Below are positions 4,560 through 61,654 of a DNA stretch of 64,000 nt, piece by piece. Position 1 is the stretch's first letter; every line of letters begins with the position of its first letter. The translations under genes and the position numbers were made by a program. The notes beneath the pieces were generated by a model that had not been told where the DNA came from, made no database searches, and saw only the letters and a program-made list of their open reading frames with translations. The stretch comes from Aliarcobacter butzleri (GTDB lineage Bacteria > Campylobacterota > Campylobacteria > Campylobacterales > Arcobacteraceae), in NCBI RefSeq assembly GCF_900187115.1, contig NZ_LT906455.1, forward strand, positions 372,001 through 436,000. The letters run 5' to 3'.

Positions 4560-5240
4560 TTATTTATCCTCTGCTACGTTTGGATAGCAAAATCTATATC
4601 CTCTTCTTCTAATAGTTTCAATTGTAGAAATATTTAATGGTTTATCCATTTTTTGTCTAATTTGGTTGATAGCAACTTCAATTACGTTTGGAGTAACAAG
4701 TTCTGGTTCTTCCCAAATAGCATCTAATAATTGTTCTTTTGAAACAATTTGGTCTCTGTGACGTGCTAGGTGAGTTAATACTTCAAAAGGTTTACCTTTT
4801 AATTCTATCTCTTCTCCAGCATACTCAATTTTTTCTTCATCAGGATTGATTACTAAATCATCAATCTCAATTACATTTGTTCCACCAAATCTTAATCTTG
4901 CCTCAATTCTTGCAAGTAAGATATCAAAATCAAATGGTTTTTTAATGAAATCATCTGCACCAGATTTTAGTGCTTCTATTTCAGATTCTTTATCATCTCT
5001 TGCAGAAATGATAACAACAGCCGTTCTTGAACTTCTATTTTTTACAATTTTACACAATTCAATACCATCACCATCAGGTAACATCCAGTCAGTTAATACT
5101 AAATCATAATTTCTAATATCAATAAAATATTCTGCATCTTTGTAATTTTCAGCAGTATCTACTTGATAACCGAAGTCTGTTAAACCTTCTTGTAGTGTTC
5201 TGTTTAATGTAATTTCATCTTCAATAATTAAAATTCTCAT
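4560..5240 (-). CDS. OmpR-family response regulator of the HsrA/CosR type
   Basis: The 226-residue protein is a receiver plus winged-helix regulator. The DNA-binding half carries KGKPFEVLTHLARHRDQIVS and VTPNVIEVAINQIRQKMDKP, which I recognise as nearly identical to HsrA (HP1043) of H. pylori and CosR of C. jejuni. Unlike those orphan regulators, this receiver keeps the acidic residues at 7-9, the phosphoacceptor D51 (LTDWMLPDGDG), S79 and K101 (IKKPF), so it should be phosphorylated. The histidine kinase follows 15 bases downstream. Repeats resembling the HP1043 binding site lie just upstream of its start. It probably controls redox or central metabolic genes as the orthologues do; that part is inference. 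Confidence 0.88.
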   Translation of the reverse strand: MRILIIEDEITLNRTLQEGLTDFGYQVDTAENYKDAEYFIDIRNYDLVLTDWMLPDGDGIELCKIVKNRSSRTAVVIISARDDKESEIEALKSGADDFIKKPFDFDILLARIEARLRFGGTNVIEIDDLVINPDEEKIEYAGEEIELKGKPFEVLTHLARHRDQIVSKEQLLDAIWEEPELVTPNVIEVAINQIRQKMDKPLNISTIETIRRRGYRFCYPNVAEDK

Positions 5241-5253
5241 AATTATCCTTAAA

Positions 5254-5270
5254 TTTAAGTTAAATTTAAT
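5254..5270. promoter_or_regulatory. Candidate HsrA-type tandem box next to the regulator's start
   Basis: TTTAAG (5254-5259), five bases, then TTTAAT (5265-5270) matches the tandem TTTAAG-N5-TTTAAG arrangement I recall for HP1043 operators. It lies 14 bases upstream of the start of the response regulator gene, where it could mediate autoregulation. The region is very AT-rich, so chance occurrence is possible. Confidence 0.4.
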
Positions 5271-61440: not shown

Positions 61441-61470
61441 AAAAAAAGAGCTCCGCGAAAGAGCTCTTTT
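61441..61470 (-). terminator. Rho-independent terminator on the minus strand
   Basis: AAAAGAGCTC (61444-61453) and GAGCTCTTTT (61461-61470) form a perfect 10-bp stem with loop CGCGAAA on the plus strand. Read on the minus strand the hairpin is followed by seven T residues (61441-61447), so it ends minus-strand transcripts: the small RNA and any read-through from the kinase operon. Confidence 0.85.
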
Positions 61471-61539
61471 AAAAATTATTTTTCGATAAATAAGACTTTT
61501 ATTTATCAAGTTTACTTTGAAATAAACTTATAGTTTAAA

Positions 61540-61578
61540 TTAAAAGTTAACAGTTATAAAAGGTGAAGTTTTCGTCAA
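61540..61578 (-). CDS. Tiny open reading frame, 12 residues (MTKTSPFITVNF)
   Basis: On the minus strand TTG at 61578-61576 starts 12 codons ending in TAA at 61540. A perfect AGGAGG (61584-61589) lies five bases upstream, stronger than the site of most genes in the window. The frame is not followed by any gene that it could lead, so it is not an ordinary leader peptide. It is too short for family assignment. Confidence 0.5.
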   Translation of the reverse strand: MTKTSPFITVNF

Positions 61579-61609
61579 TTGAACCTCCTATAATCTTAAA
61601 GATAATGTA

Positions 61610-61637
61610 ATTATAACATCTTTTTAAATTAAAACAA
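61610..61637 (-). promoter_or_regulatory. Predicted promoter of the small minus-strand transcript
   Basis: On the minus strand, TTGTTT (61637-61632) and TATAAT (61615-61610) are separated by 16 bases. The predicted start is near 61603, giving a leader of about 25 bases before the TTG codon. The promoter lies in the space just after the kinase stop at 61655. Confidence 0.55.
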
Positions 61638-61654
61638 ACTGAAATTTTATAAAA

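Follow-up and report, generated by a model that had tools for sequence, protein, structure and literature searches.

The intergenic region that follows groEL in Aliarcobacter butzleri contains an apparently undescribed small RNA gene, which we read, tentatively, as belonging to a new family of small RNAs of the Arcobacteraceae, structured and stand-alone, that would be activated by CosR and in which the occupancy of a very short open reading frame (mini-ORF) by the ribosome, and not the peptide encoded, would be what matters. The parts of this reading differ in strength. Sequence comparison supports the RNA family itself, its structure, terminator and promoter box, the conservation of the Shine-Dalgarno sequence, start codon and ORF length, and the absence of peptide conservation; that the RNA is switched on by CosR is probable, as judged from its promoter.

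A small RNA gene downstream of groEL

The window, that is, the whole stretch of 64,000 nt analysed here (contig NZ_LT906455.1, positions 372,001 to 436,000), had been given a first-pass annotation that placed on the minus strand of this region a TATAAT, an AGGAGG, a TTG, a 12-codon frame, two hairpins and a terminator, and all of these elements were found where they had been placed (Table 1). Of the promoter, only the TATAAT had been recognized: the extended -10 element of which it is a part and an activator-type repeat (61644-61628) had been missed. The start at 61603 was predicted by placing the beginning of transcription 7 nt past the -10 element. The 175-nt strand has a folding energy of -36.8 kcal/mol, compared with -21.9 +/- 3.2 for shuffled sequences (z -4.7; 0/200 as good), and the terminator of the small RNA is one of three terminators in 5 kb, where 0.9 would be expected. 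Just past it, also on the minus strand (61439-61411), there is a second sigma-70-like site (TTTAAA-17-TATAAT) aimed at the groEL 3' end, which is probably a chance occurrence in AT-rich sequence.

Table 1 Predicted features of the small RNA locus and of its candidate activator (positions in the window)
Feature	Coordinates	Strand	Remarks
Small RNA transcript, predicted	61441..61603	-	Covariance models R1 and R2 match 60 loci; both ends predicted
CosR/HP1043-type box TTTCAG-TTTGT-TTTAAT	61628..61644	-	Two hexamers with a 5-bp spacer; replaces the -35
Extended -10 element TGTTATAAT	61610..61618	-	Includes TATAAT at 61615-61610
Hairpin P1	61552..61596	-	Shine-Dalgarno within the 5' arm; start codon close to the loop
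Shine-Dalgarno AGGAGG	61584..61589	-	Five bases ahead of TTG at 61578-61576
Mini-ORF, 12 codons, TTG start, TAA stop	61540..61578	-	Putatively translated
Hairpin P2	61508..61529	-	Family covariation
Hairpin P3	61485..61507	-	Family covariation
Intrinsic terminator with U-run	61441..61470	-	Stem 61470-61444
cosR (HP1043/HsrA orthologue), candidate activator	4560..5240	-	PDB matches; putative link to the RNA

Within its genus, the window copy is among the most divergent members of the family, scoring 68.9 bits compared with 88-116 for most of the genus. TTG replaces ATG as its start codon, and the outer stem of P1 is altered yet still folds; the mini-ORF itself reads TTG ACG AAA ACT TCA CCT TTT ATA ACT GTT AAC TTT TAA. 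No Rfam 15 family matched the window at the gathering score, and the best hit of a permissive scan of the region (STnc370, E 0.00057, 37.6 bits vs a cut-off of 54) sits on the opposite strand, over the terminator palindrome.

Distribution in the Arcobacteraceae

A DNA search over 60 relatives returned homologues with E values of 8e-9 or lower: 14 further genomes of the genus held one, as did two genomes outside it. The first covariance model, trained on 15 homologues, enlarged the family to 60 loci, spread over 53 of 104 genomes and over 11 of the 20 genera of Arcobacteraceae, figures to be read with the reservations that loci of one genus are not independent, so that locus counts overstate the number of events, and that the share of genomes with the RNA depends on the sampling of the genome collection; weighting by genus was applied to the promoter and position profiles only. 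Spread as it is through the genus and into other genera, the unit singled out by the earlier annotation is beyond chance. Seven genomes (G032, G084, G085, G092, G115, G120 and G123) hold two copies each. The paired copies, for example L074 and L079, have diverged, and several carry in one copy a -10 element GTGATACAAT or GTGCTACAAT instead of GATGTTATAAT. A search of the window's own genome found no second copy elsewhere.

The second covariance model, built from the 60 loci, was run on 399 genomes of the order with strict filters, which could miss weak members, and found none outside the Arcobacteraceae. A laxer search of 29 genomes with a weak match or none added one clear and two weak candidates, and a pattern scan of named genomes gave 20 stretches, whose labels were all either Arcobacter-group or uncultured Campylobacterales, Campylobacteraceae or Epsilonproteobacteria. 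In roughly half of the genus no copy was detected (G002, G003, G006 and G008 among others), for which reason the RNA is dispensable; among 15 members of the genus without the RNA, the five readable regions downstream of groEL contained no GGAGG unit on that strand.

Conserved structure

Changes on both sides were seen at all eight pairs of P2 and at seven of the eight pairs of P3 (15 of 16 together in the 60 aligned sequences), with 97% and 94% of cells paired, respectively, counts that lean towards the structure because the alignment was fitted to it. In the same 60 sequences, whichever measure was used, few or none of 500 shuffles matched the whole structure, and sliding the pair partners by 1-3 columns cost about half of the pairing. 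A terminator-like hairpin stands at the 3' side of every one of the 60 loci, compared with 3.0 of 60 after shuffling. The most conserved part of the RNA is P1, in which the pairs of the Shine-Dalgarno sequence are mostly G-U wobbles: at four of them the G is retained in at least 45 of 60 sequences opposite U, although A would pair equally, which points to a constraint from ribosome binding and to a weak occlusion by P1. An RNA thermometer was considered and rejected, given that the probability of the Shine-Dalgarno being unpaired rises from 0.04 at 10 C to only 0.17 at 42 C, which is no switch.

A promoter of the CosR/HP1043 type

CosR/HP1043 is an essential regulator of the OmpR type, and in Campylobacter jejuni CosR is described chiefly as a regulator of oxidative stress and efflux, which weighs against the explanation favoured below. 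In front of the RNA, the extended -10 element GATGTTATAAT is invariant in 17 aligned homologues and kept in most of the 60 loci. When the -10 elements of these loci are brought into register, a single conserved block stands out upstream, made of TTTAAG and TTTAA, which occupy positions -29 to -24 and -18 to -14, respectively, relative to the first base of TATAAT, and the columns from -30 to -70 hold little information. Counted from the assumed start 7 nt past the -10, the block lies at about -41 to -25, so that in both sequence and position it agrees with the box of HP1043 (HsrA), whose consensus in Helicobacter pylori is ttTAAG-5bp-tTTAAg (PMC8345958) and which covers -42 to -26 in Php1227 (PMC5253667, PMC8345958); from this agreement we infer that CosR binds there. 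A matrix made from other genera only gave the window site a score of 14.8, the first rank among 127,966 17-mers, and the next extended -10 site a score of 3.0. Away from this site, the whole-genome pattern scan returned nothing with fewer than two mismatches; as the pattern was derived from the family, its own match was expected. Promoters of this phylum have AT-rich upstream sequence, and the CosR-type box is itself AT-rich; its ranking by the matrix from other genera argues against a generic upstream feature.

The best PDB matches of the cosR product of the window were 8uvx (C. jejuni CosR, E 8e-116) and 2hqr (HP1043, E 3e-84), and an Asp is present in the DLVLTDW of its receiver domain, where C. 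jejuni CosR reads DLVLASW. Both sequence features of a CosR/HP1043-activated promoter, two spaced hexamers and an orthologue of the regulator in the genome, are therefore present. HP1043 binds its own promoter; a TTAAG-N5-TTTAA box (5255-5269) lies between the -10-like sequence TGTTATACT of cosR and its start codon and was given no weight as a cosR signal, 6.7 such boxes being expected by chance in the window. A Fur-like palindrome across the -10 of the RNA gene (AGAT...ATCT) was dropped, being found mainly in this genus and absent from most others.

Genomic context

The earlier annotation held that the transcript is self-contained, leads no gene and is not explained by attenuation, and this view is borne out by the 60 loci, in which the downstream gene differs and is often convergent: the conserved co-directional downstream gene that would mark a leader peptide or attenuator was not seen in them. 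Most copies lie near groEL, and nearly all g6 copies and one g3 copy lie elsewhere. The view that the RNA serves a downstream gene as its leader or attenuator, or else is processed out of the 3' UTR of the kinase operon, an origin in this 3' UTR having also been proposed by the annotation, draws on two observations: throughout most of the genus the RNA starts about 50 nt past the kinase gene, and in g6 a co-directional gene usually follows it. As no other terminator was seen between the kinase gene and the RNA, read-through from that gene into the RNA terminator is possible. However, the RNA has its own conserved promoter, the kinase gene is not adjacent to the copies in G018, G028 or most other genera and is missing upstream of L014 and L015, some copies stand ahead of convergent genes, and the gene that follows most g6 copies sits upstream of the RNA in G116 and G119. 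With neighbours that vary and copies free of the kinase gene, the family finds no explanation in the attenuation of a neighbour or in a kinase 3' UTR; we regard this view as highly improbable, and the 3' UTR is not supported as the main form of the RNA. An own promoter, a conserved fold, an intrinsic terminator and no gene that is led are what is found here, as in stand-alone small RNA genes.

A mini-ORF of constant length and free sequence

Short ORFs in small RNAs are usually read as peptide genes. In this family the Shine-Dalgarno core is GGAGG in 59 of the 60 loci and GGGGG in the remaining one, and all 60 copies have an ATG or TTG at initiation spacing. Of the 45 loci outside the genus of the window, 38 have an ORF of 7 codons and five have one of 12, the remaining two having 15 and 6 codons; within the genus, 12 of the 15 copies share a length of 12 codons, a form that looks like the outcome of a one-base frame-shifting deletion and that also occurs in g33. 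The lengths in frame 2 of the same sequences are scattered from 1 to 38, and frame 1 meets a stop trivially, in the TGA of ATGA. An in-frame deletion of three bases leaves six codons in G084, a large loop insertion in G063 leaves the ORF at seven, and exactly seven codons are also present in two candidates that took no part in training, G109 and the weak G060. The P1 loops of L102:4973-5116 (G063) and L139 (G060) contain an inserted small hairpin, with the ORFs MTGILHW and MIGLLQW.

The peptides themselves vary (MTKVSHF, MIEVIHS, MMRISHI, MTGILHW, MTKTSPFITVNF), an N-terminal MTK being common among them, and the synonymous share of single-base codon differences is 0.147 in frame, compared with 0.19 and 0.35 in the other frames. 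This bears on the idea, raised in the first-pass annotation, of a small mRNA whose active product is a regulatory or toxic micro-peptide of 7-12 residues. Such a product would account for the strong Shine-Dalgarno, the start codon, the fixed length of the ORF, the single in-frame three-base deletion and the recurrent MTK, but synonymous change is not in excess in frame, length stays constant while sequence varies, the one-base deletion swapped the C-terminal half in the window's genus, and structure and covariation extend over the 3' two thirds of the RNA, all of which makes the micro-peptide quite unlikely. A toxic one has further against it that type I toxins are small hydrophobic membrane peptides, and those encoded here have 7-12 residues and are polar in most members. 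In the comparison of genomes that the annotation had suggested, the hairpins are kept and the peptide codons are not. Of the dual-function RNA that it had put forward, the regulatory RNA remains a candidate, close to our best explanation, and the functional, conserved peptide is not supported: the Shine-Dalgarno, start codon and ORF length are conserved, and the peptide is not.

The strongest rival, ahead of the micro-peptide, is a plain antisense small RNA acting in trans, which would use P1 or the A-rich linkers to pair with mRNAs; its Shine-Dalgarno-like stretch would belong to the pairing region or to the fold, and its translation would serve no purpose. The RNA is indeed structured, terminator-ended and stand-alone, with its own promoter and with P1 as its best conserved part, and the same regulator governs an RNA of this kind in H. 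pylori, CncR1 (PMC11821409). Plain antisense pairing, however, leaves unexplained the start codon at initiation spacing and an ORF of fixed length and free sequence, and we consider it possible, if on the unlikely side. Conservation of length without conservation of peptide suggests, instead, that translation itself is the function.

Discussion

According to the ribosome-occupancy explanation that we favour, CosR would bind TTTAAG-N5-TTTAA in place of a -35 and activate the extended -10 promoter, yielding a product of about 165-175 nt composed of P1, P2, P3 and the terminator. P1 would offer a strong, weakly occluded Shine-Dalgarno and a start codon to the ribosome, with the ORF of 7 or 12 codons ending within or just past P1, and a ribosome on the mini-ORF would cover and unfold this hairpin. 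The ORF being about as long as one ribosome footprint, P1 would be either folded and free or open beneath the ribosome. We conjecture that ribosome occupancy might set the stability of the RNA or its pairing activity, in which case the output would report the state of translation. Among the targets of HP1043 in H. pylori are genes for ribosomal proteins and tRNAs as well as the small RNA CncR1, and blocking translation makes these targets rise (PMC5253667, PMC11821409). It is on this induction of the HP1043 regulon that the translation-state reading draws, by analogy, the link between HP1043 and translation arrest coming from another species; that the RNA is a stand-alone translation sensor, in which a 7-codon ORF of fixed length and free sequence would switch P1 under an activator responsive to translation block, is offered as a doubtful extension of our proposal.

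Three known systems resemble the Arcobacteraceae RNA in part. CncR1, with 213 nt, is likewise a stand-alone small RNA of the Campylobacterota under the same regulator family (PMC5253667, PMC11821409), but it arises from the cagP promoter and acts on motility and adhesion genes, and the passages of these reports that deal with it describe no mini-ORF; the two RNAs are likened by description, the covariance model having found no member outside the Arcobacteraceae. Spot 42 of Escherichia coli also contains a very short ORF, of 15 codons (PMC11955535), whose peptide SpfP acts on CRP, unlike the unconserved peptide of the 7- or 12-codon ORF. Leader peptides and attenuators, such as the short CJsORFs upstream of C. 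jejuni genes (PMC11955535), share with our RNA the tiny ORF, the strong ribosome-binding site, a translation that would count more than its product, and the hairpins and terminator that follow, but the Arcobacteraceae RNA has no conserved downstream gene and its neighbours are often convergent. A survey that covered Arcobacter sp. L left genus-confined intergenic candidates unnamed, and our RNA may be among these, although the main text of that survey neither names nor describes it (Stav et al. 2019; PMC6429828). Our search of the literature found no useful RNA-seq data on Aliarcobacter.

The family described here adds a structured RNA to bacteria for which we found no described small RNAs in the literature consulted, and it ties that RNA, by sequence, to the essential and poorly understood regulator CosR/HP1043. 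For experiments, a relative with the canonical form would be a cleaner subject than the divergent copy of the window, with its TTG and its low score. The family also provides a natural test of a general question, since an ORF whose length is kept and whose sequence is free points to translation as the function, and not to a peptide gene.
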